From: Liopterus haemorrhoidalis
Lineage: Eukaryota; Arthropoda; Insecta; Coleoptera; Dytiscidae
Direction of reading: 5' to 3'
Assembly (NCBI GenBank): GCA_963971575.1
Contig: OZ020624.1
Coordinates: 2,175,001-2,239,000, forward strand
DNA length: 64,000 nt
Made by a program: the position numbers and the translations under genes. Below the pieces are notes generated by a model that was given only the letters and a program-made list of their open reading frames with translations, was not told the DNA's origin and did not search any database. Positions 6,415 to 60,176 of this stretch are shown in pieces (the first letter of the stretch is position 1; each line of letters opens with the position of its first letter).

Positions 6415-7326
6415 TTTTTAGGGTTTTGTAGGTATGACCAAAAAACCCTTATACCGACATTTTGTCGTCTGTCTGTCTGTCTGTTCGGTAAAAATTGTAG
6501 CCAAACGGCTAAACCTAGAGAGTTGAAATTTGGCATGTTTATACAACTCTTTGACCCGCACATAGGAAAAATACTAAAACATCTAAATAACATACCCCCC
6601 TAAAAATATAAACAAATATGTGCTCATCGAAAAGAATTTTTTTTTTTTTTAATTCTGAGTAGGGTATCAAATGAAAGCCCTTAGTACGTGGATTAACGAT
6701 CAAATTTTTATTTTTGCAAAATAAATTATTTTGATGCGATTTTTGCTAAAATTGTGCAAAAAAAAATTTGTCCCACACCCTGTAGCCCAGATGGTTTAAA
6801 CTAAAAATCTAAAAAAAATCTAAGTAATGTATATTGGTGTGAACCGAAATAGTACAACAGGAATTTTTGATCAGATTATGTTTTCGGAAAATAACGCATT
6901 TTTTGTGGTTTTTGGTTCACAAAGTACAAAAGTTATACCAATGTAAGACACTCACAAGCAAGGCGTGCGATAGCTTAATGGGTTAGAGCACTGGTGTCGT
7001 AAGTTGGAAAACGAAGGGTTTCGAGTTCGAGTACGGAGTGAATTTTATTTTTTCTGTTTTTTTTTGCATTTTTATTATGTTGAAATTATTTTGTCAAAAT
7101 TCTAGTTATATTTTGACAAATGTTGTATTTAATTTTTAAGAGCGTAAATTTAATAACCAGTCTTATTATATGATTAACAGACGATAAATTATTTTAAAAA
7201 TAACGTTCATTTTGCCGTGATTACTACAAAGTAAAATTTGTCCTACACACTCAGCATACCGCCTTCACTTATTATATACCTGCGAAACCCTGAAATGTGT
7301 GAATATTCACACTTCACATCAATTTT
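6415..7326 (+). mobile_element. Family B element, copy B1
   Basis: The left end is AGGGTTTTGTAGGTATGACC, the right end ATACCTGCGAAACCCTGAAA followed by a hairpin (GTGTGAA...TTCACAC), so the ends carry a roughly 16-bp inverted repeat. Near the left end is a short GTCT microsatellite (about 6466-6486) and a conserved core (AACGGCTAAACC). A tRNA-like block sits in the middle at 6962-7039. It lacks an internal module of about 240 bp present in copies at 18.8, 25.1 and 38.3 kb. No protein is encoded. Ends plus 3' hairpin recall non-autonomous Helitron/Helentron elements, but that is inference. Confidence 0.8.
6962..7039 (+). other. tRNA-like cassette, type 1, inside B1
   Basis: An A-box-like GATAGCTTAATGGGTTAGAG and a B-box-like GAGTTCGAGTAC are spaced as in a tRNA. 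The acceptor ends do not pair, so it is not a functional tRNA gene. A T-run follows directly (ATTTTATTTTTTC). Confidence 0.65.
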
Positions 7327-7370
7327 TTTAGGTCTTCACTTGAGATTTAGAAGTCAGGACCAGTGGCGCA

Positions 7371-7650
7371 CCCGGGGGGGGGGGGGGCAAGAAGGATGGA
7401 AATACCAAATTTTTTAACATTACAACATTATGATCTTAGGTAAATATATAGATATGGATTTAAAAGTAGAGATGAGGACTTTTTTTTCTCATCACTCGTA
7501 TTTTACAAGTGAGGACCTTTTTTTTGCTCATCACTTGTATTTTACTAGTGAGGACCTTTTTTTTCTCATCACTTCAGAAGCGAGGAGCTTTTTTATATCT
7601 TCATTTTTTTTTCTACCCCCCCCCATGAAAAATTCCTGGGTGCGCCACTG
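7371..7650. mobile_element. Family F hAT MITE, complete
   Basis: Terminal inverted repeats CAGTGGCGCACCC and GGGTGCGCCACTG are flanked by a perfect 8-bp duplication GTCAGGAC (7363-7370, 7651-7658), diagnostic of hAT. It is 280 bp and non-coding. Confidence 0.9.
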
Positions 7651-8620
7651 GTCAGGACCTTTTGTTTTTTTTTTGTCTTCACTTGAAATTTTGTCCTGTC
7701 TGGGGGCGCTCCATTAAATCTTGCATACGGGCGCCAAGGACCCTCGCTCCGGTCCTGCATAAGTGTGTAAATATTCATTCTCAGTTTAGGTAAAACTTCA
7801 GTATTAAAATTTTCATTTAAAAAAATAAAATGTTCACTATTTTTAACCAAATCACCGTGTGTAAATCTTCATTTATTCAGATAGTGTTCTTTTTATGAAA
7901 TATTATTTTTTCATTGTTAAAATTAACACAACTTTAACACTATTTATTTTCTAATACTATAATTTAACTAGTGTGTAAGTATAAACTTTACACTAAAATT
8001 CAGGGGGGGGCTTCAAATACACTACAAATTCATTTTTAGGGTTTTGTAGATATGACCAAAAAAACCTTATACCGTCATTTTGTCATCTGTCTGTCTGTCT
8101 GTTCGGTAATAATTGTAGCCAAACGGGTAAACTTAAAATAGCTTATTTACGATAAGATTTAATGTTTTGGCCAAAACAAAACTGATATTTGTGCAGTAGG
8201 AAAAATATCTTATATAGAATAAAGCCTGGTGTGAAGATAAAATGTATCAACCTACCTAAGAGAATGATGGTTGATGCTATAAGCCCAGCTATGAGTCGCC
8301 GAGTGTGTTCTGTATCCAAGTACATGATTCACGTACTAGCACAAGCACAGACTAGAGATGACTGACTGGGATCCGCAGATCGCAGCATCTCCGCAACAGT
8401 TCGCACATCATTGGAATTCTGCGCGTTCGCATGTCAACCAAAACAATCCACTTATCAGAATACCATTAAACTACGTCATCGTCAACGATTTGTCCAGCTG
8501 TCTTAATATAAGCACTGTTATAAGTAAAATTATAATAGCATGGTCAGAAGTGAAATGGAACTGTCAATTGAAAGGTTTACCGGACCTTTTTTTTCAGTTG
8601 ACTTAGGGTATGATCTGGCA
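7651..8620. other. Mostly non-coding; includes a family B end fragment
   Basis: Positions 8036-8130 repeat the left end of family B (AGGGTTTTGTAGATATGACC, then a GTCT microsatellite and the AACGGGTAAAC core) and then stop. The 7690-7770 block is rich in GGGGGCGC and resembles an old element end. A candidate exon at 8256-8325 is listed separately. Confidence 0.5.
8256..8325 (-). CDS. Candidate first coding exon of an unidentified gene
   Basis: On the minus strand an ATG at 8325 opens a frame reading MYLDTEHTRRLIAGLIASTI and ending at a consensus splice donor (TTAG|GTAGGT) near 8256. The peptide has a charged start and a hydrophobic stretch, as in a signal anchor. No following exon was recognised at lower coordinates, so the rest may lie outside the window or the call may be wrong. 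I do not recognise the protein. Confidence 0.3.
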
Positions 8621-8840
8621 CAGGGGTCAGCAACGCGGTGCCCGCGAAGCAATTTGTAAGTGCCCGCCTAACCATGCGAAATTCTATTTCCGATCCGCTT
8701 TTAGTAATAAAAGTACTGTCAAGAAGACTAGAAGTGTTATAGTTTTATAAATAAATATAATTTAATATTCATTATATTTTATTGTAAAACTAAATTTTAA
8801 AACTATTCCCAATATAGACCCAATATGCAAGAAAGCAATA

Positions 8841-9699
8841 ATAAAATTTGTCCTACACACTCAGCATACCAAATTTTACTTTGTAGTAATCACGGCAAAA
8901 TGAACGATATTTTTAAAATAATTTATCGTCTGTTAATCATATAATAAGACTAGTTATTAAATTTACGCTCTTAAAAATTAAATGCATCATTTGTCAAAAT
9001 ATAACTAGAATTTTGACAAAATAATTTCAACATAATAAAAATGCAAAAAAAAAACAGAAAAAATAAAATTCACTCCGTACTCGAACTCGAAACCCTTCGT
9101 TTCACACCAGTGCTCTAACCCATTTCGCTATCGCACGCCTTGCATGTGAGTGTCTTACATTGGTATAAATTTTGTACTTTGTGAACCAAAAATCATAAAA
9201 AATGCGTTATTTTCCGAAAACATAATCTGATCAAAAATTCCTGTTGTACTATTTCGGTTCACACCAATATACATTACTTAGAATTTTTTTAGATTTTTAG
9301 TTTAAACCATCTGGGCTACAGGGTGTGGGACAAATTTTTTTTTGCACAATTTAAGCAAAAATCGCATCAAAATAATTTATTTTGCAAAAATAAAAATTTG
9401 ATCGTTAATCCACGTACTAAGGGCTTACATTTGATACCCTACTCAGAATTTAAAAAAAAATATTTTTGTTTTCGATGAGCACATATTTGTTTATATTTTT
9501 AGGGGGGTATGTTTTTTAGATGTTTTAGTATTTTTCCTATATGCGGGTCAAAGAGTTGTATAAGCATGCCAAATTTCAACTCTCTAGGTTTAGCCGTTTG
9601 GCTACAATTTTTACCGAACAGACAGACAGACAGACAGACAGACAGACGACAAAATGACGGTATAAGGGTTTTTTGGTCATACCTACAAAACCCTAAAAA
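8841..9699 (-). mobile_element. Family B element, copy B2 (inverted relative to B1)
   Basis: It matches B1 on the opposite strand over nearly its whole length, lacks the same 240-bp module, and ends CATACCTACAAAACCCTAAA. The terminal hairpin end is missing. A CAGA microsatellite occupies about 9618-9652. Confidence 0.8.
9071..9141 (-). other. tRNA-like cassette, type 1, inside B2
   Basis: The reverse complement matches the B1 cassette (GGCGTGCGATAGC, GGGTTAGAGCACTGGTGT, CGAGTTCGAGTACGGAGTG) with a small deletion in the middle. No acceptor stem is formed. Confidence 0.6.
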
Positions 9700-11655: not shown

Positions 11656-11663
11656 TTATAATA

Positions 11664-18801: not shown

Positions 18802-18846
18802 CTATATGTTTACAATACTTCTTTCTCTGTGTCTGACGGCTGTTAA

Positions 18847-19916
18847 AAAAAATTGATGTGAAGTGTGAATTTTCACACATTGCAGGGTTTCGCAGGTATA
18901 TAATAAGTGAAGGCTGAGTGTGTAGGACAAATTTTGCTTTGTAGTAACCACGGCAAAATGAACGATCTTTTTAAAATAATTTATCGTATGTTAATCTCAG
19001 AGCTTTAAAAACAAATTTTATGTTAAAATATTTTTTTGTTAATTTTAATTCGAATACCTAATATCATTATTTAGGTTTCTAAATAAGTGCAGTTTTTTTT
19101 TTTTTATATAACAAGGTTCATTAAGATTTTGAAAATTGGCCTATGGCTTTCATTGGTTGTCTTAAATCATACGCTCCGCACCTCTGGCTTCGTATAAATG
19201 ACACAGAATGAAAATATAATTGGAAATTGGTTATTAAATTTACACTCTTGAAAATTAAATTCAAAATGTGCTAAAATATAACTAGAATTTTAACAAATTA
19301 ATTTAAACATAATAAATATGAAAAAAAAAAAACAAAAAATAAAATTGACTCCACAAGCCAGGAACGAACCTGTGTAGTGAATAACGATCCTGTGTGGTTG
19401 TCGAGCAACTGAGCCACTAGACCACCAAACGCTTATCAACTTAGTGTGTTATAAGAGTATAACATGTATGCATCGTCAACCAAAAAACACAAAAATTGCG
19501 TTATTTTCCGAAATCATAATCTGATCAAAAATTCCTGTTGTACTATTCCGGTTCACACCATTATACATTACTTAGTTTTTACACATTTACACATTTTTAG
19601 TTTAAACCATCTGGGCTACAGGGTGTGGGACAAAAATTTTTTTGCACAATTTTGGCAAAAATCGCGTCAAAATAATTTATTTTGCAAAAATAAAATTTTG
19701 ATCGTTAATCCACGTACTAAGGGCTTTCATTTGATACCCTACTCAGAATTTTAAAAAAATATTTTTTTTTTCGATGAGCACATATTTGTTTATATTTTTA
19801 GAGTGATATATTTTTTAGATGTTTTAGTATTTTTCCTATGTGCGGGTCAAAGAGTTGTATAAGCATGCCAAATTTCAACTCTCTAGGTTTCGCCGTTTGG
19901 CTACAATTTTTACCGA

Positions 19917-19966
<50 letters not shown>

Positions 19967-20018
19967 GACAAAATGACGCTATAAGGGTTTTTTGGTCATA
20001 CCTACAAAACCCTAAAAA
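18847..20018 (-). mobile_element. Family B element, copy B3
   Basis: The hairpin end (GTGTGAATTTTCACAC) lies at about 18860 and the AACCCTAAAAA end at 20018. It has the extra 240-bp module, the paired TTTTAACAAATT-type segment beside the cassette, and a long CAGA microsatellite (19917-19972). It lies about 270 bp before the scramblase start codon. Confidence 0.85.
19347..19433 (-). other. tRNA-like cassette, type 2, inside B3
   Basis: On the minus strand: A-box-like TGGTCTAGTGGCTCAG and B-box-like CAGGTTCGTTCCTGGC, where CAGG/CCTG would form a T stem. The interval between boxes is long, as in tRNAs with a long variable arm. The acceptor ends do not pair. Confidence 0.65.
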
Positions 20019-23200: not shown

Positions 23201-26200
23201 AGGGTTTCTTGGTTTCAATAACTAAATCCCAAAAATAGGTCAAAAATTCATTTAAAAAAATATATTTCAAAACAAAAATGTTATTATCTCGATACATGAA
23301 GTACAAGTTTACCCATAAATATGATAATTGTTTATGTTATTTCAGTGATTCATGCATATTTTTATTATCTTTTAACGCGTTTTATTTTAATTTGAAAAGG
23401 TAAGATATGATAAGAGATAAGAAAAACCTATTGCTCTAATTATTTTCACGATTGTTCCAAAATTCAAAAATCACAAATACAGTCACTCAAATCTATATCA
23501 GTATTTTACAAATTTTTAAACCCTTGGTTTTCAATCTTTTTGAAGCCGGGGAACAACACTTTTTTTGCGCGGAACGCTAAACTGTGATATTTTTATTTCT
23601 AATTGCCGGGAACAGTGCCAATCAGGGCCGGATTTTCCTTTAGGCTAACTAGGCTTAAGCCTAGGGCCTCCTAAGTTCAGAGGGCCTCACAATTTAAAAA
23701 GATGCATATGTACTAAAAAAAATTTAAAAATAAGTTATAACTCAAGAAACACAGACCATACGAAGAGTTTTATAATTCACCCGAAATCTAGTTTTTCCCT
23801 TTATAGGTTAACTAGGGCAAATACGTTTTTGAACATGTTTATGGGTAGCAAAAAGTCGATATCTCATTGGGCCTAAGAGATATTAAGGAATCCGTAAAAA
23901 AACATTTCACCAGCGACGTCATATTGATAATATTTGCGAGAATAATTTGTATGAATTTGGTGTGTTTATGCGAACCTGAAGTTGTTCATGCTGTAGGTAT
24001 AGAACTGCCAGTTTTCTATGAGCGATCTGCAATTACCCAGCAGCCAACAAATGATGGTTTCCCCGGAGTACGAAGGCCAATCCCAGTGTCCACCATAGAA
24101 TGGCGCAGCACTACACTGCAACACTTCATCCCCGTCACTGGACTGGACTTCCTCTACGGAGTCCAACAAGTCAACATACAGCAAACAGTTGAATTACACG
24201 ATAGTAAGTAATATCCCCTCAGTATCAAAATGATTGTATTCTTAGTTCAGTATTTGATAGAATACGAAGTATGTAAATTACGTAACCGGACTGATTTTTT
24301 TAAGTTTTTTTATTCGAATAAAATTACAATTCAATATTGTCTCCCTCAAAATAACTTCCTTGGGAAGCCACACAGCGCTGGAGACGGTTCTTCCAATCCT
24401 CATAGAAGTGCTGAAACTCGGATACTGGAATAGCTTTCAGCTGGTCGATTACGGGCGTTTGATTGTTTTCGAGTGTCCCAAAATAACGTCCCTTGAGGTG
24501 ATTTTTCAATCTTGGGAAGAGGAAAAAGTCACAAGGACTCAAGTCAAGCGAATAAGGAGGCTGAGGAGCCACAGGAATGTTTTTACTGCCCAAAACTCGT
24601 TTATTGAAATTGCTGTGTGACAAGGCGCATTGCCATCCCCAATTCATTGGTCAAAATCTGATGAACGGTAGTGTGAGTCAAATTCAACTCTTCCCCGATC
24701 ATTCTGACTGTCAACCGACGATATGAACGCACAATATCCCGGATTCTGTCGATATTTTCATCGGTTCTTGAAGATGAAGGTCTTCTGCTGCGTGATTCAT
24801 CTTCAATCAACTCTCCTCCTTCTGAAAATGCCTTAAACCATCAAAAAACCTGGGTCCTTGACAAAACACTGTCTCCGAAGGCCTGGTGAAGTTTTGCAAA
24901 AGTTTTCGTTGCATTGTGCCCACGGCTTCAAGAGGGCAGTTTTGTGTTATTATTCCTCCGGAACCACTGCGTGGGCCCTTTCGAATACCTCTACTCCTAG
25001 GGTCAACTAATCACTTGTCGATAGTCTTCGGGAACAACCCCCCGGAGTGAAATGCGTCTGAACCCTGTCTGTTCTGAACATGAATATGAAAAATTTATGT
25101 GAAGTGTGAATTTTCACACATTGCAGGGTTTTGCAGGTATATAATAAGTGAAGGCGGCATGCTGAGTGTGTAGGACAAATTTTGCTTTGTAGTAACCACG
25201 GCAAAATGAACGATCTTTTTAAAATAATTTATCGTCTGTTAATCTCAGAGCTTTAAAAACAAATTTTATGTTAAAATATTTTTTTGTTAATTTTAATTCG
25301 AATACCTAATCTCATTATTTAGGTTTCTAAATAAGTGCAGTATTTTTTTTATATAACAAGGTTCATTAAGATTTTGAAAATTGCGCCTATGGCTTTCATT
25401 GGTTGTCTTAAATCATACGCTCCGCCCCTCTGGTTTCGTATAAATGACACATAGAATGAAAATATAATTTCAATTGGTTATTAAATTTACGCTCTTGAAA
25501 ATTAAATTCAAAATTTGCTAAAATATTACTAGAATTTTAACAAATTAATTTAAACAAAATAAAAAATTTAAAAAAAAACAAAAAAAATAATTGACTCCAC
25601 AAGCCAGGAACGAACCTGTGTGTGGTGTATAACAAATCTGTGTAGTTGGCGCGCAACAGAGCCTCTAGACCACCACATGCTTAACAACTCAGCATGTTAT
25701 ATGAGTATAACATGCACATGTTATATGAGTATAACACAAAAAATGCGTTATTTTCCGAAAACATAATCTGATCAAAAATTTCTGTTGTACTATTCCGGTT
25801 CACACCGATGTACATTACTTAGAATTTTTTCAGATTTTTAGTTTAAACCATCTGGGCTACAGGGTGTGGGACAAAAAATTTTTTGCACAATTTTGGCAAA
25901 AATAGCGTCAAAATAATTTATTTTAATTTTAATTTTAATTTTAATCCACGTACTAAGGGCTTTAATTTGATACCCTACTCAGAATTTTAAAAAAATATTT
26001 GTTTTCTCGATGAGCACATATTTGTTTATATTTTTAGGGGGATATGTTTTTTAGATGTTTTAGTATTTTTCCTATGTGCGGGTCAAAGAGTTGTATAAGC
26101 ATGCCAAATTTCAACTCTCTAGGTTTAGCCGTTTGGCTACAATTTTTACCGAACAGACAGACAGACAGACAGACGACAAAATGACGGTATAAGGGTTTTT

Positions 26201-29200
26201 GGGTCATACCTACAAAACCCTAAAAACTCTAAAATTGTCCCATCCAAATTTATAGCTGGTCATTAAAATTGATATTTTCTATTGCAGTGTTATCACAAGT
26301 GGAAAGTGAAAACAGATATACAGTAAAAATACCAGGAGGTGAAACTCTTTACTTGGCAACAGAATCCAGTACTGCTTTTCAACGAATGTGCTTCGGCAGT
26401 TCTCGGCAATTCGTCCTAACCCTTTACGATAGCACGCGGCAACATGCGATGCAATTCGTTCGAAGACTTGCCTGTACCAACTGTCTCCTACCTTGTCGCC
26501 TGCAGGAGATGGCGGTGTGGACACCTCCCGGGAACGTTATAGGAACAGTGAGACAGTGCTTCACTCTCTTCGAACCGGCTTTCATGGTGTTGGATGAAAG
26601 TGATCATCCTTTGTTTAAAATCACAGGACCACCCATGTGTACATGTGCGGCTTATAAAGATGCCTTGTTTAGTGTAAGTATTAACAGAACCGTAACTAGG
26701 CAGTGGCAAAAGCCTGGGGCTCAAATTTAAGTGGAGTGGGGTCTATAAGGGTTTGCCAAATAAGGCAATTAACATAACATTACCAAAAAAGCACCCCAGT
26801 GGCAAGCCCTGGGGAGCGGTAAATTAAATAAAATTATTTTATTACTAGGTTATGACCCGTCAACAATGACGGATTTATAATATCAAATTTTCAATTGTTT
26901 GTATGTGTATTTGGTTTTATTTTTACGTATCTTAATTTCGTCGCCGGTCATCGAATCACGGGACAGGATATCACCAGTTAGACAATCACGACAGAGGCTG
27001 TCACCTGTCAACCAATCAAAAGACAGGGTGTCTCCAGTTAGCCAATCATGAGAACCTTTGAGGAAAAATTGACGTCATAATGTTACCGACATTAAATACA
27101 CACACTTGCTAATTATATAGTTAGATGAACTTTTTAATTCATGAACTTTTTAAGATGGGAAAACGATTCATTTTTACTCAGTAAATTACATTTATATTGT
27201 TAAAATTAAAAATATTTTGAGACGTTAATTTATGACTACGAAACCCTATGGTCTATTTCAAAGTAGAAAAATGTGTGTAAGAAGATAGGAGCTGTTTGTC
27301 CTTGCTTCGGATTGGTTTAAATCGTCATCCCTATTACACTGTAAAAATATTGTTTTTAGTCCAAGTTGACATATGTTCAGTGTCGTACATTGGAAATATA
27401 TATTATTTATATTATTTAATTTTTCTCATATATTTTGTTATTATTTACATATTTAGACTTTTATTTATATTCTTGGCGTAGATTTTATGGAGAAAATTCT
27501 CCATGTAATTTGTTTTTACGCAGTTATATATTTTTTAGGTTATCTGACATATAAATATTTTTTGACACTTGACATTTAACAGATCAAGAGAGAGGACTAA
27601 TGTGAGGCCAAAAGACAGCCCAGCTAATTGTGCCCAAAGAAGAAGTTATTGATATAATTTTTAGACCTTCATATATACATATATTTTTAATTTTTATTTA
27701 CAATAATTATTTAAATAAGAAACTTTAGCTCTGAAGATACATTGTTTGTTTTATTGCTTTGTTTAAACTCTTTTAGCCAAATCTCTCAACTTTTTCGAAT
27801 TTTCCATTAAACTGAATTTATGTCGCATAAATATCGTAAGTGTATTATCTGCCTTGTTTATTTCAATATCTTACTAACCTTTTTTTATATTAAAAAAAAT
27901 CACTTGCTAACCCAGTTGCTACGCCCATGCCCTAGTTGTAACTTATTTTAAATTTCCCGGTATACTGTATTTGATCAGTGTAAATCGTACTCCGTTCGCA
28001 GCGCTATCTACTTTTTTCTACTTTGAAATAGACCATAGACATTTATGTATTTAATTATATTTGTAGACTTAGAGAATAAATCAGCAAAATATTGTTCATA
28101 TCGGTCTAAGGATAGAAGAGTGTCTAAAGTTTCTTTTTTTCTTGCCTACGAAATCCTAGATATTTATATATATAATTATATTTGTAGATTATTAGAGAAT
28201 AAACCTGCAAAATATTGTTCATATCGGTTAAAGGATATAGGCGTGTATAGAGTTTCTCTTTAATGCCTATGAAACCCTAAACATTTCTATATGTAAATTT
28301 AACCGCAGTTTCTTAGAGAATAATTCTGCAAAATATTTTTCATATCTATTATAGGATATAGGAGTGTCCAGAGTTTCTTGTTTATGCCTACAAAACCCTA
28401 GACATGTCTGTAAATAATTATATTTGTAGATTCTTAGAATATAAATCTGCAAAATATTTTTCATATCGATCGTAGGATATAGGATTGTCTAGAATTTCTT
28501 GTTTATGCCTACGAAACCCTAGACATTTCTATATGTTATTTTATTCGCAGTTTCTTAGAGAATAATTCTGCAAAATATTTTTCATATCTATTATAGGATA
28601 TAGGAGTGTCCAGAGTTTCTTGTTTATGCCTACAAAACCCTAGACATGTCTGTAAATAATTATATTTGTAGATTCTTAGAATATAAATCTGCAAAATATT
28701 TTTCATATCGATCGTAGGATATAGGATTGTCTAGAATTTCTTGTTTATGCCTACGAAACCCTAGACATTTCTATATGTTATTTTATTCGCAGTTTCTTAG
28801 AGAATAAATCTGCAAAATACCTCTCAATTAAGAGACCTCAAGAGTCCCCAGTTAGCCAATCACGTGAACCTTAGGAAAAATGACGTCACAGTGTGACACA
28901 GATCACTAACACACGCTAGCTAATTATACCATATATGTACGATTTGCTAAATTTGGCTTTTTAGGGGCGGCATTTCTTGTGTGGCACCTCGGCGCCATAG
29001 TACCTTGGCACGGCTCTGCCGATCATAGAAAATATTCCAGTAAGAATATAATAAGAATAATAAGAGCATCAAGAAGAAAACATTTGTATTTCTACGCTCT
29101 TATTGACCAGAAAATATAGACGTTGAAAAGTTATTAGCGAAATATTTTTATGAATATTTGCATAGGTATATGCACACATTAGGTTGAATAATGGCATATA

Positions 29201-30700: not shown

Positions 30701-31959
30701 TGCTTGAATCAGTCGACCGAATAGGGCCGAGTACTCGCGAAGTATAGTTCGAACGAACACGCTTGCACTGTAACCGTAGCCTTATACTGATTTGAAGTTT
30801 GGGCTGCACAGCGGAAAGACCCCAAAACCAGGAAAATTTTCAGTGGCCTTATTCGTGTCTCTCCAACACATTACCGAAATTAAAATTATTTGTACAGTGT
30901 AAATTGGTGATAAATCAGACGATCCCCTTAAACAGATAAATAATTATAATTAATTTTAATTTATAACTGTAATTTATATTATTTAATGTAATAACATCTT
31001 ATAAGATTCTTAATAAAATAATAAAAAGATTGAAGTGTGAATTTTCACACATTTCAGTGTTTTGTAGGTATTTAGTCAGTGAATGATGATTATTAGAAGG
31101 CCAAACGATGAATGCCTGTCACTACATAACACAATTACAAGTGTTGGTTTTAAATCCTTTAAATCAATAGGCACGACAAGAAGGTTGCAGTTAGATTTTT
31201 TCTACCGTGTATCATATATCTCTAATAATACCATAATATATATTTTAATGCATTTTTTTTGCCCTCCCGCTTAAAAGGTTGCACGGGCCTGCTGTAGTGA
31301 TAAAACTAAACTCGAAACACATATTTTTTTTTTTTGAGTTCCCAAAATTTGATGGCTGTGATAAAGCTGGTTTTGTTTTGTACCTCCTCATATTATGAAT
31401 TGGGATAGTAGCCCCTTTTTCCCAGGTTATGTACCGTCACTGTGTGATTGATTTTAGTTCGAGAAAATACCGCTAGATGGCAGCACATATCTAAAACAAC
31501 CTGACGCGTTTCATATTTTTTAGTAAAATTACAAAAATTTCAATATAAACAATACAATAAATCGAAATGTATTCATGATGTTTAATATGTTTTTATAACT
31601 GTTTTCTATTTGAAAATTAGAATAATTTGCAATAACTAATGGCCAGTTGTGAATAGATAACATTGATTACTCATTGATTATTCTTGGTCTAAGTACAAAA
31701 TGCAATTTAAATTTTATTTTTAGTTTATTACTTTAAAATTGGCACATAGAATAATTGTCAACATAACCTGCGATATTGACGAAAGAAGACAAGATTTTAC
31801 TTATTAAATAATACCCCTTAATAAATTTTTATAAAAAAATACTTATTAAACACTAACTAGCTGTCCCGCTCAGTTTCGCTCGAGGACAAGTAGTTATTAT
31901 TGACCCTGTTGTTATTATTAAAAGTGTAGCAACTTTGGGTTTTAAAATTATAGATTCTT
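30701..31959. other. Intergenic; one family B end fragment
   Basis: 31029-31085 is the hairpin end of family B (GTGTGAATTTTCACAC then GTTTTGTAGGTAT). AGCTGTCCCGCTCAGTTTCG at 31859 looks like a retroelement remnant. No gene. Confidence 0.4.
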
Positions 31960-31969
31960 TTTTTTTTAC

Positions 31970-32441: not shown

Positions 32442-32779
32442 ATAATAATTAATCATTATAAGTTTTTTTCAACAAAGTTTTTATTTTACATTTATCATAT
32501 TATAGTGTATTATTGTTGCAAAGAATAAAATGAAAAAATATTTTTTTTTTACAAAATTTCCTTGTGACCTCCTTTTTATTGTAAAAAAGTTGGTCACCTA
32601 ATTTTTGGTCATACCTACAAAAACCTAAAAAAAAGTATAAAATTAATATAGACATTTCTCGCAAATAATTGCTGTAGTAAATAATCTCTATATCTTTTAA
32701 TTTTAGAGATCTAATCATTGAAAATAAAATTTTGTAATTAAATTAGTCAATAAAAATATTTTTAACAAAACTAAATTTG

Positions 32780-34040: not shown

Positions 34041-34926
34041 CAGTGGTTTCCAAACTTTGTTCACTAACGCCCCCTTTATACAAAATCCCATCTCTCGCGC
34101 CCCCCTTTTTAGAAAATTTATAAACAATTTGTAAATAATGGCATTATTGAAATAATAATCACAAAAGTAGTACAAATATGTAATGTAGATAATTCCTAAA
34201 TATTTATTCTCGCAACATAAATCACGAAAATTGTATAAAAATAAATTATATTAATATTAAATGTAATACAAAATACAATAAAAATGAATCAATTTTAAGA
34301 AAGAGTTACAGTCTGTTCCAAACGGTTAAGCGGAACTAAATGGGAATTTAGTTCTTTTAGGTTGTCACGAGAAGGGACCTTGCTTGGGTTATTTCATTTT
34401 TCATGTTGGGATGTCCAAATTTAAAATTCCAACAATGAAACCATGGAAACGAATGACATATGTCAAAATTAAATATTTTTTTTAGATATTTTAATGACAA
34501 AAAAATAAATAAATAGGACATTTGTATTAAGAATGACACAAAAAATCAAAATATAAAGAAAATGACATTTTAAAATGATATTAACCTTAACCAAAAAATG
34601 TTTATTGTAAGTATGATTTACAAAGCTTAAACAAAACGGCCGAAAGGCACGATTTAAACGATGAAAGTAACTAGATTGCAAAATCTAGTTCCGCTTAACC
34701 GTTTGGAACAGACTGTACTCTTATTTCGTCTTCCACTATTAATCGTGCTCGATATTTTGTTTTAATAACAGCTTGTGTGGAAAATTCTGTTTCGCACATT
34801 GTTTTATTTAGCTGCTACATAAACGATCGAAAAAAAAATACATATTTGCAATTAACCCGCGACCCTTTGGTGAATCTTGCACGCCCCCCCCCCATGGGAT
34901 CGCGACCCCCACTTTGGAAACCGCTG
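34041..34926. mobile_element. hAT MITE containing a family C insertion
   Basis: CAGTGGTTTCCAAACTTT and its inverse (CACTTTGGAAACCGCTG) bound the element; flanking CACTACAT and CTCTGCAT agree in 6 of 8 bases. Subterminal runs of GCCCCCC are present at both sides. A family C MITE (34309-34715) is nested inside. Confidence 0.75.
34309..34715. mobile_element. Family C MITE, 407 bp
   Basis: CAGTCTGTTCCAAACGG and its inverse CCGTTTGGAACAGACTG are the ends; TA on both sides. Near-identical copies at 50484, 58466 and 59010. No true coding sequence; the ORFs in it are chance. Confidence 0.9.
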
Positions 34927-34965
34927 CTCTGCATGATTATTTATGTTTTTTAAACTCAATAGTTT

Positions 34966-35245
34966 TCATATATGTGGATCAAAAAGTTGTACAACCATGC
35001 CAAACGTCAACTTTCTAGGTTCAGCCGTTAAGCCACAATTTCTACCGCACAGACAGACAGACATATAGACAGACAGATATATAGACAGACAGACATATAG
35101 AGAGACAAACATATAGACATACAAACAGACAGACAGACATACAGACATAAAGACGGATGGACAGACAGACAGCTAGGTAGGCAGACAGACACATGAGTGA
35201 CGTTGTAAGTTTTTTTTTAAGTTATACTTAAAAACCCTAAGAAGG
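34966..35245 (-). repeat. Diverged family B end with CAGA/CATA microsatellite
   Basis: GGATCAAAAAGTTGTACAAC, TTTCTAGGTTCAGCCGTTA and the ACCCTAAG end correspond to family B. The microsatellite (35046-35190) is mixed CAGACAGA and CATATAGA. The central cassette region is absent. Confidence 0.6.
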
Positions 35246-35876
35246 AATTCAAAATTCAAACTAGCTGATGAGCAAAAAAAAAAATTCTTGTTGCGCAAAA
35301 CGTAACCGAGAGAAATTATAGCAAAACCTGGAGCCTGGAGATACGGTGGAGAATCTCTGAGACTACGGTGAAACCCTATGACGTCTCCCTATGGTATCAT
35401 AACGAACGTCGACCATTATAACGTTCTGCAGGGAACAAAAACATGCAACAGGTCACGTAGAATGTTCCCGAAACTTCCAGTAAAATCAGTCGACCTACAT
35501 GACATTTAACTTTATTGATTATGCATTGCAAAACAAGGGGGTAATTAAAACCGTTTTTAGATAATAGGGAGAAATACGTTTTGGAAATTAAAAAAAAAAA
35601 CCAAATGCAGAAAAAAGCGCTTGGAATTCTTTATTTAAATTTTATTGTGATGAAATTCTTGCAAATTATTTAAATTTATTTAAAAAAAAAATTAAATACA
35701 AGCTCTTAGTACTCAAATAACGAATAAAAATTATTAAAAGTGTTGATTTTGAAGTAATAAGAGAAAAATATTTTCCTTCCCAGCATTCTGTTGGCTTCTT
35801 ACACTTGTAAAATACCTACAAAACCCTGAAATGTGTAAAAATTCACACTTCACATCAATTTTTATATATTTTACAT
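35246..35876. other. AT-rich intergenic stretch
   Basis: 35815-35870 is a family B hairpin end (TACCTACAAAACCCTGAAAT, then TTCACACTTCACATC). No gene. Confidence 0.4.
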
Positions 35877-36848: not shown

Positions 36849-37388
36849 ATGTCTGTATACATTTTACGTAATTGGGAGGCTCCACGTCGCCATCCACACC
36901 ATCATCATCACCTGCAGCCTCGTTTTAACCTGGACATCTCTCCCGAAGACTTCCTTCTGCCTCTAACACTAGCAGCGCTTCAAAACAGGCCCCAATCAAC
37001 GGCAAGGCAACAAACTACAGTTGCAAAGCCAGAAGATGGCAGCTTTGTCATGAATGTTGATGTTCAACATTTTCAACCTGAAGAAATCACCGTAAAAGTC
37101 GTGGATAGATCTATTGTTTTGGAAGCAAAACATGAAGAGAAACAAGATGAACATGGTTTTATCTCAAGAGAATTTACTAGAAAGTATTTGTTGCCAGAAG
37201 GATTTGATATTGATAAAGTATGCTCTAGTATGAGTACGGATGGGGTTTTGACAATTAAAGCACCAAAAGAAACGAAGGAATCACAAAAAGAACGCACTAT
37301 TCCGATTATACATACGGGGCCCACCAGACAAATTCAAACTCCCGCGCAGGAAAGTGCTGCCAACTTGGAGAAAGAAAAAGAACAGTGA
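36849..37388 (+). CDS. Small heat-shock protein with histidine-rich N-terminus
   Basis: A 179-residue intronless ORF. After MSVYILRNWEAPRR comes a histidine cluster (HPHHHHHLQP) that replaces the usual RLLDQHFG motif, then FNLDISPEDFLLPLT. The alpha-crystallin domain spans about residues 64-148 (MNVDVQHFQPEEITVKV; EEKQDEHGFISREFTRKY; MSTDGVLTIKAPK). An IPI motif (RTIPIIHTG) precedes a charged tail. It is 3.3 kb from the sHSP at 32993 and shares its ACD motifs, suggesting tandem duplication. Cytosolic holdase role by family. Polyadenylation signal near 37593. Confidence 0.95.
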   Translation: MSVYILRNWEAPRRHPHHHHHLQPRFNLDISPEDFLLPLTLAALQNRPQSTARQQTTVAKPEDGSFVMNVDVQHFQPEEITVKVVDRSIVLEAKHEEKQDEHGFISREFTRKYLLPEGFDIDKVCSSMSTDGVLTIKAPKETKESQKERTIPIIHTGPTRQIQTPAQESAANLEKEKEQ

Positions 37389-37619: not shown

Positions 37620-38309
37620 TTTGTTTTATTACTGTTCCAAGTTAATTTTATTATTATTTGTAAGTTTTCTTAAGTCCATTTTACATTATACTTTTTTGCG
37701 AAGCACTAGAGATTTTTTGCGTAGTACTGACGTAAAAAGTATAATGTGAAACATAATTCTTCCTTCCAACTTTCGATGCTACACTACAAACTACACTATT
37801 TTCAAAACTACCTCCGGACAAATTTTTGGATGACAGTTGTATACTTCTCAGTCATACCAACCACTAAATTTTTAGTTTTTGTTTACAACTTAACTTTTAG
37901 AAGTTTACTAAGTTGATCAAAAGTTTATTTAGAACATATAATTAAATATAAACTTAGCACAATTAAACAATATTTATAAATTGGTTACTAGAAATGGTTC
38001 TATAACCAAACTGTTGTCTGTCACCTGAATCTAGAATTTTTTAAGTTGGCAGTGAAGAGTATCACAAAGTAATAAAAGATGGAAGGTATCGATGTCTCTT
38101 ATTTTTTCCCCCACCATATTATGTAGTATCAAAAGTTGAAATGACGTCAGAGTTGGATAGTATTGAAAAAAGTATAATGTAGAATGGACTTTACAGCTAT
38201 TGCCGTCCTTCGCATTCAAGTTTATATATTTTTTTATCCAATTTTGGTAAGCAGAGATCATCTTTTCTCTTTAATGATGTTTTGGGGGACCGTATCAAAA
38301 ACAGTTCTT
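37620..38309. other. Intergenic stretch
   Basis: Diverged inverted blocks (AGTCCATTTTACATTATAC at about 37673 and GTATAATGTAGAATGGACT at about 38171) may be the ends of a MITE of roughly 520 bp. No gene. Confidence 0.45.
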
Positions 38310-38312
38310 TTT

Positions 38313-39446
38313 AGGGTTTTGTAGGTATGACCAAAAAACCCTTATACCGTCATTTTGTCGTCTGTCTATCTGTTCGGTAAAAATTGTAGCCAAACGGCTA
38401 AACTTAGAGAGTTGAAATTTGACATGCTTATACAACTCTATGACTCGCACATAGCAAAAATACTAAAACAACTAAGAAACATATCCCCCTAAAAATATAA
38501 ACAAATATCTGCTCATCGAAAAAAAAATTATATTTTTTAAAAATTCTGAGTAGGGTATCAAATGAAAGCCCTTAGTACGTGGATTAACTATCAAAATTTT
38601 ATTTTTGCAAAATAAATTATTTTGAGGTGATTTTTGGCAAAATTTTGCAAAAAAAAAATTAGCCAACACCTGTAGCCCAGATGATTTAAACTAAAAAATC
38701 TGAAAAAATTCTAAGTAATGTATATTGGTGTGAATTGGAATAGTACAACAGGAATTTTTGATCAGATTATGTTTTCGGAAAAAAAATCGCATTTTTTGTG
38801 GTTTTTGGTTGACACAAAAGTTATAGTTATGAAACACACTATATTAGAAGACGTATCGTGGTCTAATGGTTAGCTTGCTCGCTTGCTACCCAGCATACTA
38901 GGGTTCGCTCCCGGGCAGAGGAGACAATTTTATTTTTTGTTTTTTTTTCCATTTTTATTTTGTTTAAATTAATTTGTCAAAATTCTAGTTATATTTTGAC
39001 AAATGTTGCATTTAATTTTTAAGAGCGTTAATTTAATAACCAATTGGAATTGTTGGAATTATATTTTCATTCTATGTGTCATGTATACGAAACCAGAGGG
39101 ACGCAGCATATGACTTAAAACAACCAATGGAAGCCATAGGCGCAATTTTCAAAATCTTAATGAACCTTGCTATATAAAAAAAAATACACTGCACTTATTT
39201 AGAAACCTAAATAATGGTATTAGATTTTCGAATTAAAATTAACAAAAACATATTTTAACATAAAATTTGTTTTTAAAGCTCTTAGATTAACAGACGATAA
39301 ATTATTTTAAAAATATCGTTCATTTTGCCGTGGTTGCTATAAAGCAAAATTTGTCCTACACACTCAGCATGCCGCCTTCACTTATTATAATATACCTGCG
39401 AAACCCTGCAACGTGTGAAAATTCACACTTCACATTAATTTTTTAA
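38313..39446 (+). mobile_element. Family B element, copy B5
   Basis: A full-length forward copy: AGGGTTTTGTAGGTATGACC start, short GTCT run, AACGGCTAAAC core, tRNA-like cassette, T-run, hairpin TTTGTCAAAAT/ATTTTGACAAA, 240-bp module, and hairpin end (GTGTGAAAATTCACAC). Confidence 0.85.
38851..38925 (+). other. tRNA-like cassette, type 3, inside B5
   Basis: A-box-like TGGTCTAATGGTTAGC and B-box-like GGGTTCGCTCCCGG are well preserved; T-stem GGG/CCC can pair. No matching acceptor stem. Followed by TTTTATTTTTTGTTTTTTTT, a possible Pol III stop. Confidence 0.7.
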
Positions 39447-46386: not shown

Positions 46387-49300
46387 ATGGCCCGCAAACA
46401 AATCGAAGCCACTTTTATTCTAATTGATCTTTCTACTCAATGTAAAGAACTAATGTTTAATTACTTTAATAAATTTGTTGCAAGAGTCGCATTAGTGAAT
46501 AAAACACAAGATTTATTTAAACTAGCTTTCATCGGCTGTTCTGATACAGATAATGAGTTAAATTATAAAAATATTAAAATTTTACATGATTGGCAATATT
46601 ACACGAAAGATAATTTGATATCGTACCTCACCAAAGTATTAAAAAGTAAGAATTTGTTTAAAAGTTTTGTTCGGAACTGATTTTGTGAGTTGTAGATTAT
46701 CAGGAATGTCAAACGAAACCAGGAAACTTGTTCGAAGGAGTTTATTTAGCGTGTCATCATTTAGAAAACGATGAAACTGTTCTGAAAAGTCAACCAAAAC
46801 GTATTATTTTATTGACTGATTTATGTACGGAACAACCAGGAGATCTGAATAAGTAAGTATTATTGTGAATATACAATCAAAACTCCTTATTTACAGGTTC
46901 GCTAGTAGATATATATAACCATGGTTTTTATTTTAGAACCACGAGTGAGGCACAAAAATTTCTATCTTCAAGCGACGTGTGGTTATACGTCCTTGGCCCC
47001 CTTGTACGTACCCCATTTCTAGCATCTCTTGACGATATAAATCGTTGGATTCGTACCGTCGAACCAACCGATAAACTAAACGATCAGCTAGCTAGTAACC
47101 TTCGTTTAATGCGTGGTGTTATAAAACATGGCCTAATAGCTGATTGGTATGTTGGATGGAATTTGCTGTGGGTTCATCGGCCACAACTTAAAGCACCGTT
47201 TCCATGGTATTCGGAACTTACTATTGGTGATGTACGTATTCCGGTTAATGTGGTCAAGTATATAAGTGACGAACATGCTATTCGGTGGAGTGGACGTTCT
47301 GGAGGTTATAAAGAAAGGGAAGAAAATAGTAGTACTGAAAAGTTGGTGAAGAATCCAGATACAGGAGATATTGTACAGGATGCTGTACAAGGTTACAAGG
47401 TATTTTTTATATTAATTTATTTTTGAGATTTTTATTTTAAAACATTTTTTGTTAATCTTAAATCGAATACCTAATACCATTATTTAGGTTTCTATGTGCA
47501 GTATTTTTTTTTATATAGCAAGGTTCATTAAGATTTTGAAATATGCGCCTATAGCTTCCATTGGTTGTTTTAAGTCATATGCTCCGCTCCTCTGGTTTCC
47601 TATACCTGACACATAGAATGAAAATATAATTCCAACAAGTCCAATTGGTTATTAAATTTACGCTGTTAAAAATTAAATGCAACATTTGCCAAAATATAAC
47701 TAGAATTTTGACAAATTAATTTAAACAAAATAAAAATAGAAAAAAAAAAAAACAAAATAAAATTGTCTCCTTTGAGCGGGTGCGTACTTTAGTATCCTGG
47801 GTAGCAAGCGAGAAAGTTCTTCTCCACCTTTTAATATTGTGTGTTACCTAACTATAACTTTGTGCATCGTCAACAAAAAAACACAAAAAACGCGTTATTT
47901 TCCGAAAACATTATCTGATCAAAAATTCCTGTTGTACTATTCCGGTTCACACCAATGTACATTACTTAGAATTTTTTCAGATTTTTAGTTTAAACCATCT
48001 GGGCTACAGCATGTGGGACAAAATATTTAAATTTATTAAATTTACGCTTTTAACAATTAAATGCAACATTTGCCAAAATATAACTACAATTTTGACAAAA
48101 TAATTTAAACAAAATAAAAAGTAAAAAAAAAAAACAAAACAAAAACTGACGGGAATCGAACAGTAGTTTGCAACTTACGAAGTGAGAACGTTACCACTGG
48201 ACTTCGGACGTTCACTCGTTTACTGTGTTAAATAGCGGATTAAATATTTTACATATTTTAGTTAAAGACACAAAAAATGCGTTATTTTCCGAAACATAAT
48301 CTGATCAAAAATTCCTGTTGTACTATTCCGGTTCACACCAATGTACATTACTTAGAATTTTTTCAGATTTTTAGTTTAAACCATTTGGGCTTCAGGGTGT
48401 GGGACAAAAATTTTTTTGCACCATTTTGGCAAAAATCGCAATTATTTTGCAAAAATAAAAATTTTGATCGTTAATCCACGTACCAAGGGCTTTCATTTGA
48501 TACCCTACACAGAATTATAAAAAAATATTTTTTTTTTTCGATGAGTATATATTTGTTTATATTTTTAGGGGGATATGTTTTTTAGATGTTTTAGTATTTT
48601 TCCTATGTGCGGGTCGAAGAGTTGTATAAGCACGCCAAATTTCAACTCTCTACGTTTAGCCGTTTGGCTACAATTTTTAACAAACAGACAGACGATAAAA
48701 TGACGGTATAAGGGTTTTTTGTTCATACCTATAAACCCTAAAAAAACAGTTACACTTCCAAAATAGGCATTTTAGAAACATAATGGCATTCTTTGGAAAA
48801 GTTCTTAAAATAGTTATAAAATAAACAATATCATTTAAAAAACTTGTTAATTAGTTATATAGCAAATTCTGCTAGCATTGCTAAATCCTCGTCCATATTA
48901 TTTAACAAATACGTTATTTAGCAAATATGTTATTCGATACTTTTTAAGAAACTTCTTTTACTAAGAGCTTAACTTAAAGAGTTTTGACACGATATTCTAA
49001 TGGTGAGTTTAGTCAACACTTAGCGATAGCTTTAGTCTTACTCCTATATTTTAATTTTATCCTTAAAAGATAAACTATCATATCGCTACGAGCAAGTTCA
49101 TACAACACATTTCTTTAATTTTAGTCCTATGGTTCTGGCCTTGAAAGATAACTAAATTCTAACTTTCCTACGGCTGGGAGTAAATCACGTTAAAACGCAC
49201 CATGCGCGTGCGCGCACCCCGATTTAAATTCTAAAAGCACCCATCGTGGCCAACATAAGGCCATAAATAGCAGCAACACTTCTAGACTTATTTCGGTACA

Positions 49301-57736: not shown

Positions 57737-58303
57737 ATGGCTTTAAATCTTTTCACCGATTACGACATACGTCCAACACAATTATTGGATCAACATTTCG
57801 GCATGGGCCTACATCCTGACGAATTTGTCACACCATTAGCATATCCTCGTTCTCATTTCCATCCATTATTAAGCGCACGAAACATGAATTTACCAGCGTA
57901 TTACCGTCCATGGAGAGCAACCAGCGCCGTAAAAGATTGTGGATCTACTATAGTACACGATAAAGAAAAATTCCAGGTATCTTTAGATGTCCAACAATTC
58001 CGTCCGGATGAATTGAAGGTAAAAGCAGTGGATGGATGTGTTGTTATTGAGGGTAAGCACGAAGAAAAAGAAGATGAACATGGATTTATATCTCGGCAGT
58101 TTCAAAGACGGTATGTCATTCCACAAGGTTATGATCAACAGCAGATTGTTTCTAAGTTGAGTTCTGATGGAGTACTCACTATAACAGCCCCCAGGATTGG
58201 TCCTTGTGAGAGAAATGAAAGGAATATTCCTATTACCTCTACAGGAGAACCACATCGTATTAAACCTGTACAGAAAAAGGATATTCCACCAGCAGAGAAG
58301 TAA
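57737..58303 (+). CDS. Small heat-shock protein (HSP20/alpha-crystallin family)
   Basis: An intronless ORF of 188 residues. The N-terminus MALNLFTDYDIRPTQLLDQH with FGMGLHPDEF is close to the sHSP at 32993. The alpha-crystallin domain is at about residues 74-155 (VSLDVQQFRPDELKVKA; EEKEDEHGFISRQFQRRY; LSSDGVLTITAPR), then an IPI motif (RNIPITSTGEPH). It is complete, with AATAAA near 58412. Unlike the two other sHSP genes, no heat-shock element or clear TATA box is visible in the 114 bp between the ATG and the end of a Tc1-like transposon. Its promoter may have been displaced, so heat inducibility is uncertain. Confidence 0.93.
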   Translation: MALNLFTDYDIRPTQLLDQHFGMGLHPDEFVTPLAYPRSHFHPLLSARNMNLPAYYRPWRATSAVKDCGSTIVHDKEKFQVSLDVQQFRPDELKVKAVDGCVVIEGKHEEKEDEHGFISRQFQRRYVIPQGYDQQQIVSKLSSDGVLTITAPRIGPCERNERNIPITSTGEPHRIKPVQKKDIPPAEK

Positions 58304-58465
58304 AACCTGGGTTAAATTTTGCTATTTTTATTTAATTCATTGCTTTTGTAATACGAATTCAATTGTACTGATTCTTAATGTTTTTATAAGTTAATTAAAA
58401 TGTATTGTGATTTAATAAAAGTATTTTTCTGAATATTTTTATGTAAGTAAATAAGAAGACTAATA

Positions 58466-58873
58466 CAGTCTGTTCCAAACGGTTAGGCGGAACTATGTGG
58501 GAATTTTGTTCTTTTAGGTTGTCACGAGAAGGGACCTTGCTAGGGTTATTTCATTTTTCACGTTGGAATGTCAAAATTTAAAATTCCAACAATTAAACCA
58601 TGGAAACGAAGTATATATGTCAAAATTAAATTATTGTTTTTATATATTTTAATGACAAAAATATAAATAATTGGGAAATTTGTAATAAGAATGACACAAA
58701 AAATTAACATATAAAGAAAATGACATTTTAAAATGATGAAAAAAATCACCAAAAAATGTTTATTGTAAGTATGATTTACAAAGCTTAAACAACACGGCCA
58801 AAAAGCACGATTTAAACGATGAAAGTAACTAGATTGCAAAATCTAGTTCCGCTTAACCGTTTGGAACAGACTG
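58466..58873. mobile_element. Family C MITE, 408 bp
   Basis: CAGTCTGTTCCAAACGG ends with TA on both sides; same orientation as the copy at 34309. It starts about 50 bp after the sHSP polyadenylation signal. Confidence 0.9.
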
Positions 58874-59009
58874 TATTCTAGCTCCAACGTTAATTTTTGT
58901 AAAATGGGAAAAAAATCCAAAGTTCTATTACAAATTTTAATTAATATTTACGTATTGAGGTTGCTGTTCAGTTGAAAAATTTATATTTTTTTGAGAAGTG
59001 ACCCAACTA

Positions 59010-59414
59010 AAGTCTGTTCCAAACGGTTAGGCGGAACTAGATTGCAAAATCTAGTTACTTTCATCGTTTAAATCATGCTTTTCAGCCGTTTTGTTTAAGT
59101 ATTGTAAATCATACTTGCAATAAACATTTTTTGGTTAAGGTTAATATCATTTTAAAATATCATTTTCTTTATATTTTGATTTTTTGTGTCATTCTTAATA
59201 CAAATTTCCCATTTATTTTTTTGTCATTAAAATATGCAAAAAAAAATAATTTAATTTTGACATATGTCATTCGTTTCCATGGTTTCATTGTTGGAATTTT
59301 AAATTTTGACATTCCAACATGAAAAATGAAATAACCCAAGCAAGGTTCCTTTTCGTGACAACCTAAAAGAACGAAATTCCCATTTAGTTCCGCCTAACCG
59401 TTTGAAACAGACTG
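59010..59414. mobile_element. Family C MITE, 405 bp, inverted partner
   Basis: Same ends and TA flanks but opposite orientation to the copy 136 bp upstream, so the two form a large inverted repeat. Confidence 0.9.
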
Positions 59415-59524
59415 TAGCACAAAATGCTTTATAAAAATTCTATAAACATTTTTACAACAATATTAAACAGCTGAGAACTTTATAATTCAATAACAAGAAT
59501 GTTTATTGAGCAAAAAAAAAAAAA

Positions 59525-60176
59525 TTATGTGAAGTGTAAATTTCAGGGTTTCGCAGGTATTTGGTAAGTGAATGATGATTATTTGGGATGCCAAAACAAA
59601 TTTTATGTTAAAATATTTTTTTGTTAATCTTAATTCGAATGCCTAATACCATTGTTTAGGTTTCTAAGACCTATGGCTTCCATTGGTTGTTATGTCATAA
59701 GCTCCGCCCCTCTGATTTCGTATACATTGAAACATAGAATTAAATTATAATTTCAACAATTGCCACTGGTTATTAAATTCACGCTTTTAAAAATTAAATG
59801 CAACATTTACCAAAATATAACTAGAATATTGAAAAAATAATTTAAACACAATAAAAATGCAAAAGACCTAACCTTGGTTTGCAACTTAAAAAGCGAGAAG
59901 GCTAACCATTACACCATTAAAGCGTACTGGTTTATACTATGTTACATAACGTATTAAATATTTACATCGTCAACAAAAAAAAAAACAAAAAATGCGTTAT
60001 TTTCCGAAAACATAATCTGATCAAAAATTCCTGTTGTACTATTTCGGTTCACACCAATGTGCATTGCCTAGAATTTTTTCAAATTTTTATTTTGAACCAT
60101 CTGGGCTACAGGTGTGGTACAATTTTGGCAAAAATCGCGTCAAAATAATTTATTTTACAAAAATAAAATTTTGATC
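59525..60176 (-). mobile_element. Family B element, copy B7, truncated
   Basis: Hairpin end eroded (GTGAAGTGTAAATTTCAGGG), part of the 240-bp module, tRNA-like cassette, inner flank to the CTGGGCTACAG block, then truncated before the microsatellite. Confidence 0.8.
59864..59930 (-). other. tRNA-like cassette, type 5, inside B7
   Basis: The minus strand has A-box-like TGGTGTAATGGTTAGCC and the middle part TAAGTTGCAAAC, shared with the B6 type 4 cassette; the B-box is eroded (CAAGGTTAGGTC). Confidence 0.5.

Follow-up and report, generated by a model that had tools for sequence, protein, structure and literature searches.

A HINE/DINE-1-like element of the beetle Liopterus haemorrhoidalis with a tRNA-like middle module that differs between subfamilies

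HINEs (Helentron-associated non-autonomous rolling-circle elements) and DINE-1 elements are described by a set of listed features: subterminal inverted repeats, a palindrome, a microsatellite and T-run ends (PMC4067079, PMC2374699). DINE-1 is given as the most abundant repeat of D. melanogaster, and Helentron-type elements are thought to be copied by a rolling circle, with end bypass and composite transposition proposed for them (PMC4067079). Drosophila DINE-1 is described as having neither an RNA polymerase III (Pol III) consensus nor tRNA similarity (PMC2374699). Here we analyse family B, a repeat present in several copies in a 64,000-nucleotide stretch (the window) of the genome of Liopterus haemorrhoidalis (GCA_963971575.1, contig OZ020624.1, positions 2,175,001 to 2,239,000), whose common backbone is interrupted by a slot holding tRNA-like sequence of several types. 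We consider it probable (about 0.65) that family B is an abundant HINE/DINE-1-like element with a tRNA-derived middle module, and that the modules of its subfamilies were altered by exchange at the DNA level.

Family B shares with DINE-1/INE-1 and the HINEs the subterminal inverted repeats, a partial inverted repeat at the 5' one, a (CTGT)n tract in the 5' block, a variable middle between conserved blocks, a 3' palindrome, T-run ends, a TT target without duplication and a very high copy number (PMC4067079, PMC2374699). However, the middle of DINE-1 varies between species, whereas the tRNA-like middle of family B varies between subfamilies of one genome. Insect tRNA-derived short interspersed elements (SINEs) also contain a tRNA-related region with A and B boxes, but they carry it as a 5' head and are retroposed, while the module of family B is internal and the termini are of the rolling-circle type (PMC8010984, PMC3272025). 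A further parallel is the Arabidopsis tRNA-Cys cluster overlapping annotated Helitrons, where tRNA sequence was proposed within Helitron-like DNA; that is a local cluster without a reliable Helitron prediction, in contrast to the thousands of dispersed copies and several modules found here, and a Helitron-captured tRNA is stated there to be what would be the first such case (PMC10701932). Among the titles and abstract openings listed in a survey mostly outside the subscription journals, none pointed to a Helentron, HINE or DINE-1 with a tRNA-like or Pol III module.

Alignment of the copies confirmed the seven loci, with eight slots, that a first-pass annotation of the window had pointed out. 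The backbone is about 0.9-1.2 kb long in this alignment; it has TTTTTAGGGTTTTGTAGGTAT at the 5' end, and ATACCTGCGAAACCCT, the palindrome GTGTGAAnnTTCACAC and TTCACATCAATTTTT at the 3' end. The module lies about 500 bp inside the element, the slot is bordered by T-rich sequence at both ends, and the module abuts the backbone T-run directly. B1 (6415-7328, forward strand) starts with a T-run (6415-6419) preceding the 5' subterminal inverted repeat AGGGTTTTGTAGGTAT (6420-6435), which overlaps a palindrome that runs to 6449, and has a (CTGT)n microsatellite (6467-6485) within the 5' block. Its slot, the variable block of the alignment (6918-7040), contains the tRNA-like sequence (6964-7036; A box 6971-6981, B box 7024-7034), and the 3' subterminal inverted repeat ATACCTGCGAAACCCT (7276-7291) is followed by the palindrome GTGTGAATATTCACAC (7297-7312), TTCACATCAA and a T-run. 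B1 lacks about 240 bp of the 3' part that B3-B5 have, and the 40 best-scored full-length genome matches to it (B1 itself included) are 96-100% identical. B5 (38308-39442; slot 38811-38925, A box 38859-38869, B box 38902-38912) also lies on the forward strand. The reverse strand carries B2 (8870-9699; slot 9071-9183, A box 9120-9130, B box 9077-9087), B3 (18846-20018; slot 19347-19477, A box 19414-19424, B box 19360-19370), B4 (25093-26226; slot 25593-25724, A box 25662-25672, B box 25606-25616), the B6 locus (47430-48744) and B7 (59518-60176; slot 59865-59971, A box 59906-59916), which is truncated at the 5' end and has most of its B box deleted. B6 comprises two tandem units with slots of different type: the outer B6b (48033-48744; slot 48148-48267, A box 48194-48204, B box 48152-48162) and the inner B6a (47430-48028; slot 47765-47871), whose boxes are decayed. 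The 3' end of B2 is gone; B2 stops at a fold-back joint (8842-8870), where the backbone continues into 28 bp of its own sequence in inverted orientation. Judged by their structure, the B6 tandem with its different slots and the inverted piece of B2 are the kind of joints that template switching would leave.

The subterminal repeats AGGGTTTTGTAGGTAT and ATACCTGCGAAACCCT are inverted with 14 of 16 positions matching, as read from the sequence, and in B1 a distance of about 37 bp separates the second of them from the element's 3' end, in line with the HINE pattern (repeats of 12-15 bp, the 5' one close to the terminus and the 3' one about 38-60 bp inside). The 3' palindrome (GTGTGAAnnTTCACAC) and the microsatellite of the 5' block ((CTGT)n) also follow this pattern. 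All 28 B1-type copies, which are 28 of the 40 best genome matches to B1, have the ends TTTTTAGGG...CACATCAATTTTT (several with single substitutions) and T-runs at both ends, as in HINE insertion into a T-run (TT) without target duplication. No target-site duplication was seen by eye in these 28 copies, whose flanks share Ts alone; a clean empty insertion site was looked for and not found. The ends read in the 28 copies do not have the canonical Helitron features (5' TC, 3' CTRR, insertion between A and T). Because of the subterminal inverted repeats, the (CTGT)n tract, the 3' palindrome, the T-run ends and the lack of a visible duplication, the element looks like a HINE/DINE-1-like non-autonomous rolling-circle element. 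Four of the 28 copies (L002, L006, L073, L079) are inserted in the same kind of host repeat. B1 is flanked by a 259-bp direct duplication (6156-6414 and 7329-7589, about 97% alike) within a repeat with GAGGACC..TTTT motifs, and copies L006, L073 and L079 lie in such repeats too. In L004, two elements form a head-to-tail pair, the 5' end of one directly following the 3' end of the other.

The 51-bp stretch immediately 5' of the slot has 7,927 exact matches (3945 forward, 3982 reverse) in the 1,020,077,131 bases (1.02 Gb) of the genome searched, compared with none for the reversed pattern. This is a lower bound that favours young copies, since 51 exact bases are required; among the eight window units, only B1, B4 and B7 have the stretch exactly or nearly so. 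Element density is uneven: 80 kb of blind-sampled DNA yielded three copies in 40 kb of C13 and none in 40 kb of C2. Exact-pattern scans of separate collections of viral contigs and genome contigs gave no matches in either. Element pieces were also present in six of 30 tRNA-gene loci of 3 kb each (L013, L020, L027, L028, L031 with two copies, L039).

The contrast between slot and flanks is already apparent in the window. The 5' flanks of the eight units are 88-97% identical over aligned bases and the slots of different types only 44-68% (Kimura two-parameter distances of 0.05-0.13 for the 5' flank versus 0.42-1.04 for the slot), so the common backbone with a differing centre reported in the first-pass annotation stands, and the central blocks do not align to one ancestor at the divergence of the flanks. 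The size first given for the slot, 65-90 bp, has to be revised: the variable block measures about 107-132 bp, including 50-60 bp ahead of the A box, and its 5' edge is graded. The proposed pairing into types holds for B1/B2 (95% slot identity), B3/B4 (79%) and B5/B6a (79%), while the suggested relation of B6b to B7 amounts to only 62%. Distances in the 5' flank and in the slot are uncorrelated across the eight units (r from -0.09 to 0.18, two 5' measures by two slot measures); distances in the slot and in the near 3' flank are correlated (r 0.77 and 0.55, p 0.0006 and 0.0024), also without B2 (r 0.68 and 0.40, p 0.005 and 0.04).

The genome sample consisted of the first 100 listed places of the 51-bp pattern, all on C1, taken as 351-bp stretches irrespective of slot type. 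A recognisable 3' flank was present in 97 (L131, L146 and L174 were dropped, their 3' anchor not being found; L118 is truncated). Average-linkage clustering of these 97 slots at a distance of 0.30 gave groups of 34, 31, 17, 9 and 2 copies plus four singles, one of them truncated; at 0.25 there were 15 clusters, and shuffled slots stood at a distance of 0.498. By eye, type 1 corresponds to B1/B2 and type 2 to B3/B4; B6b is similar to type 3, and the tRNA part of type 0 was seen in no window slot. A further slot type occurs in N1 and N3, copies met in other sampled DNA, and the interior of N1 is unrelated to the others (z up to 1.7). These two copies (C13, about 2.268 and 2.278 Mb; L082, L083) have the reverse-strand B box GGGATCGAACCC and His-GTG as the nearest tRNA of the beetle itself; their anticodon stretch is reminiscent of tRNA-Glu.

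The window contains nine A+B box pairs with up to three mismatches, eight in slots and one at 4414; the pairs are present in six of the eight slots and all lie in element sense. Markov-simulated sequence gave 3.68 pairs per window (standard deviation 2.26, maximum 10, 100 simulations): the count alone is modest, and the striking part is the placement in the slots. In the genome sample, 87 of the 97 copies have both boxes in element sense at up to three mismatches, versus 1 of 485 shuffles and none of 97 on the reverse strand, which rules out chance matches; at up to two mismatches the figures are 55 of 97 and 0 of 485. The single orientation on the backbone noted in the first-pass annotation thus extends beyond the window. 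In each of the four main types, the consensus A box has no mismatch to the general consensus, yet its sequence varies from type to type (TAGCGTAGTTGG, TGGCGTAATGG, TGGTCTAGTGG, TAGCACAGTGG); the consensus B boxes have 0, 2, 3 and 1 mismatches. In all four types, divergence is lower in the B box (0.009-0.078) than in the sequence separating it from the A box (0.062-0.206), which suggests that the promoter may have mattered in source copies. The only box pair outside the slots (4414-4491, forward strand) coincides with a separate observation: a control window at 4470 topped the controls in mean tRNA similarity in the comparison with metazoan tRNAs described below.

Internal A and B boxes are also what an ordinary SINE family with different tRNA heads would have. 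In family B, however, the module is not a 5'-end head, the ends are HINE-like, and the element terminates in a T-run instead of an A-rich or LINE-like (long interspersed element) tail with duplication (no tail or target duplication was seen; LINE tails were not searched for). The rolling-circle-type termini and the lack of a visible target duplication lead us to reject an ordinary SINE, an explanation with very little probability left.

The similarity of the slots to tRNAs was scored against the beetle's own set (35 distinct tRNA gene sequences found by ARAGORN, reduced to one sequence for each of 16 anticodon classes covering 13 amino acids, without Glu, Gln, Asn, Met, Pro, Trp and Val). Mean z values were 3.98 for B1, 2.54 for B2, 1.55 for B3, 0.47 for B4, 2.41 for B5, -0.12 for B6a, 2.29 for B6b and 1.57 for B7, compared with a mean of 0.04 (standard deviation 0.38, maximum 1.15) in 150 GC-matched control windows. 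Seventeen metazoan tRNAs give the same picture (B1 2.80, B2 2.92, B3 1.79, B4 0.71, B5 3.65, B6a 0.07, B6b 2.19, B7 2.30; 80 controls with mean 0.02, standard deviation 0.37, maximum 1.22), and phage T5 tRNAs showed good similarity to B1/B2 alone. The claim that the blocks are tRNA-like is borne out by box pairs in six of the eight slots and by mean z in six (all but B4 and B6a). The nearest own tRNAs differ between slots, by small margins (Thr-TGT for B1, B2 and B6a; Gly-TCC for B3, B5 and B7; His-GTG for B4; Ala-CGC for B6b), and the score profiles of B1/B2 are negatively correlated with those of B3 and B5. These differences would fit different origins. The isotypes, which the first-pass annotation had proposed to compare, were left unassigned for all slots because only 16 classes were available, the type-1 consensus (about B1/B2) is nearest to Tyr-GTA, unlike Thr-TGT for B1/B2, and one control window alone had a top z of 8.0 against the metazoan tRNAs.

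The Rfam model RF00005 found no tRNA in the window at its gathering score; with the slots scanned singly, it gave 12 bits for B1, under the cut-off of 29, and no match in B3, B5, B6b or B7 (B2, B4 and B6a were not run singly). No slot scanned reaches a tRNA-gene score, which rules out functional tRNA genes there. A covariance model built from 13 own tRNAs scored the B1 slot at 18.8 bits, its sole match in 144 kb comprising the window and other DNA. A link between the interiors of B1 and B6b (z 7.3, above the maximum of 5.1 in 185 pairs of phage T5 control tRNAs) was not used, because the value for the type-1 consensus is only 1.9 and comparisons among own tRNAs for different amino acids score as high as 11.2.

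Whether the types reflect exchange or local divergence was examined on the type consensuses. In the tRNA part these are 47-56% identical (73% for the pair 0-3; shuffles 49%, standard deviation 4), in the upstream part of the slot 55-64% (pair 0-3: 76%; shuffles 52%, standard deviation 5), and in about 110 bp of 3' flank 75-80% (pair 0-3: 96%). By these values the main types are nearly unrelated in the tRNA-like part, the pair 0-3 excepted. For 20 copies, five of each of the four types with the 5' flank added, mean distances between and within types were 0.061 and 0.047 in the 5' flank, 0.468 and 0.106 in the slot upstream, 0.578 and 0.128 in the tRNA part, and 0.101 and 0.030 in the 3' flank; net differences between types were 0.014, 0.36, 0.45 and 0.07, respectively. 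The similarity of the copies thus breaks at the 5' edge of the slot.

All types might derive from one ancestral hypermutable tRNA-like sequence (for instance through transcription-associated mutagenesis at a Pol III unit) and be the product of old divergence instead of exchange. Locally faster change is real: in the 28 B1-type copies, the tRNA part differs 2.05 times as much as the flanks (44/2072 versus 207/19982, p 5e-5), while the 60 bp ahead of it are not elevated (0.93-fold), and within types the stretch between the boxes exceeds the 3' flank 2.7- to 9-fold. Types 0 and 3 and the window slots B5, B6b and B7 also share some interior similarity and may be one old module. However, the tRNA part exceeds the 5' flank 2.7-fold within types and about 32-fold in the net comparison between types, and the 5' flank distances in the window do not follow the slot distances. 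The within-type ratio appears far below the between-type ratio, clearly so only against the 5' flank; by that measure local speed alone fails as the cause, hypermutation as sole cause is rejected, and exchange evidently took place at the 5' edge of the slot. We regard a single hypermutable ancestor as improbable.

Several observations weigh against our reading. Each main type has its own 3' flank (slot versus 3' flank, r 0.70-0.75), and the 5' flank is also coupled to slot type, though weakly (between/within ratio 1.29, p 0.0005 by permutation, r 0.32-0.37 with the slot). Relative to the 3' flank, the excess of the tRNA part is 4.3-fold within types and 6.3-fold net between types (uncorrected), so fast local divergence may explain much of the tRNA-part difference. 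The cloverleaf is mostly lost: the covariance model finds no match in B2-B7, and in the genome sample it matches 30 of 100 copies at E<=5, two of these at E<0.01, all inside the slot and in element sense, 16 of them longer matches and 14 the 11-nt B box alone. In types 0 and 1, the A box is as divergent as the stretch between the boxes, or more so. Interior similarity cannot separate common from independent origin, given that own tRNAs of different amino acids reach the z of 11.2 quoted above. Finally, no module donor was found, the genome not having been searched for stand-alone copies. Since box pairs are frequent and covariance-model matches few and often confined to the B box, the modules retain their promoter boxes better than the cloverleaf.

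Part of this evidence can be turned round: old tRNA-bearing 3' lineages with a fast slot may have received a young 5' half, spread by recombination or gene conversion, without any module being replaced. The 5' half is indeed the most homogeneous part, and the 3' flanks diverged together with the slots. The 6.3-fold ratio is, however, too low because the tRNA part is near saturation, and the true ratio is higher; the tRNA-part consensuses stand at the shuffled level while the 3' flanks are still 75-80% alike, and the contrast in types 0 and 3 (96% in the 3' flank, 73% in the tRNA part) argues for more than local speed. This direction of events is a serious possibility, to which we nevertheless give less than an even chance, and replacement of the tRNA modules themselves seems likely. 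Copies with the upstream half of one type and the tRNA half of another were absent among the 91 of the four main types, a weak negative, as the choice was forced among four types clustered on the whole slot; the copies of type 0 were divided between types 0 and 3 when judged by the 3' flank, which is nearly identical in the two, and the labels of the five minor copies scored were mixed, as their types lie outside the four. As each type keeps its own 3' flank, exchange would be rare or old; it appears to have produced subfamilies, and either half may have been the one that moved. The exchangeable cassettes of the first-pass annotation are not free ones in the face of this co-variation; its idea of acquisition or swapping is supported for the 5' edge of the slot and is likely, not proven, for the modules.

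tRNA heads are common in SINEs, and the T-rich stretches on both sides of the slot would suit a tRNA-derived SINE inserted in the T-run once or several times, its body since lost and its boxes inherited without a role. Nevertheless, no SINE body or tail was present beside the slot in the sequences read, the module ending right at the T-run, and no window slot had a match outside the element copies in the window better than E 0.005 (short AT-rich pieces). We consider such an insertion unlikely.

Under the DNA-level exchange that we favour, the most likely route would be template switching in the T-runs bordering the slot during rolling-circle copying. Switching would have joined the common 5' half to different 3' halves, each carrying a module, and the tRNA-like part would then have diverged further, by replacement, locally faster mutation or both. 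The backbone T-run following the A and B boxes is a putative Pol III terminator. The step we hold most loosely is that the retained boxes mean a module that is or was transcribed by Pol III and aided the element, for instance through an insertion site held open, and that does not specify a functional tRNA. A bolder version, in which selection kept a Pol III promoter module that the family has exchanged again and again, like SINEs swapping heads, and in which the family possibly gained by staying accessible or by escaping small-RNA silencing of older modules, is doubtful.

Other features of the window include a related element (31024-32631, reverse strand) with termini similar to family B and an interior without a match to it, which suggests termini common to several families, and a degenerate relative (33785-35866, forward strand) with B-like 5' and 3' ends, other repeats inside and an inverted 5' part (34960-35242). 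A tandem array of a 121-bp unit lies at 28015-28919 (six registered copies), and a long palindrome at 62498-62606, with weak microRNA-precursor scores on both strands, is probably a small inverted-repeat element. Hsp20-like open frames occur at 32993-33529, 36849-37385 and 57740-58300, with relatives mostly in beetles and moths/butterflies, also in lacewing and mosquitoes (best match 69%); further open frames have scramblase (26233), Ku (49523) and Mos1-type helix-turn-helix domains. The other RNA-family matches in the window led nowhere.

With several types and thousands of copies in one genome, the question of exchange can be answered from sequence alone. If our reading is true, a rolling-circle family whose internal tRNA-like modules were exchanged would connect two ways in which mobile DNA evolves, would allow template switching during rolling-circle transposition to be tested in a natural setting, and would place thousands of potential Pol III sites within one genome.

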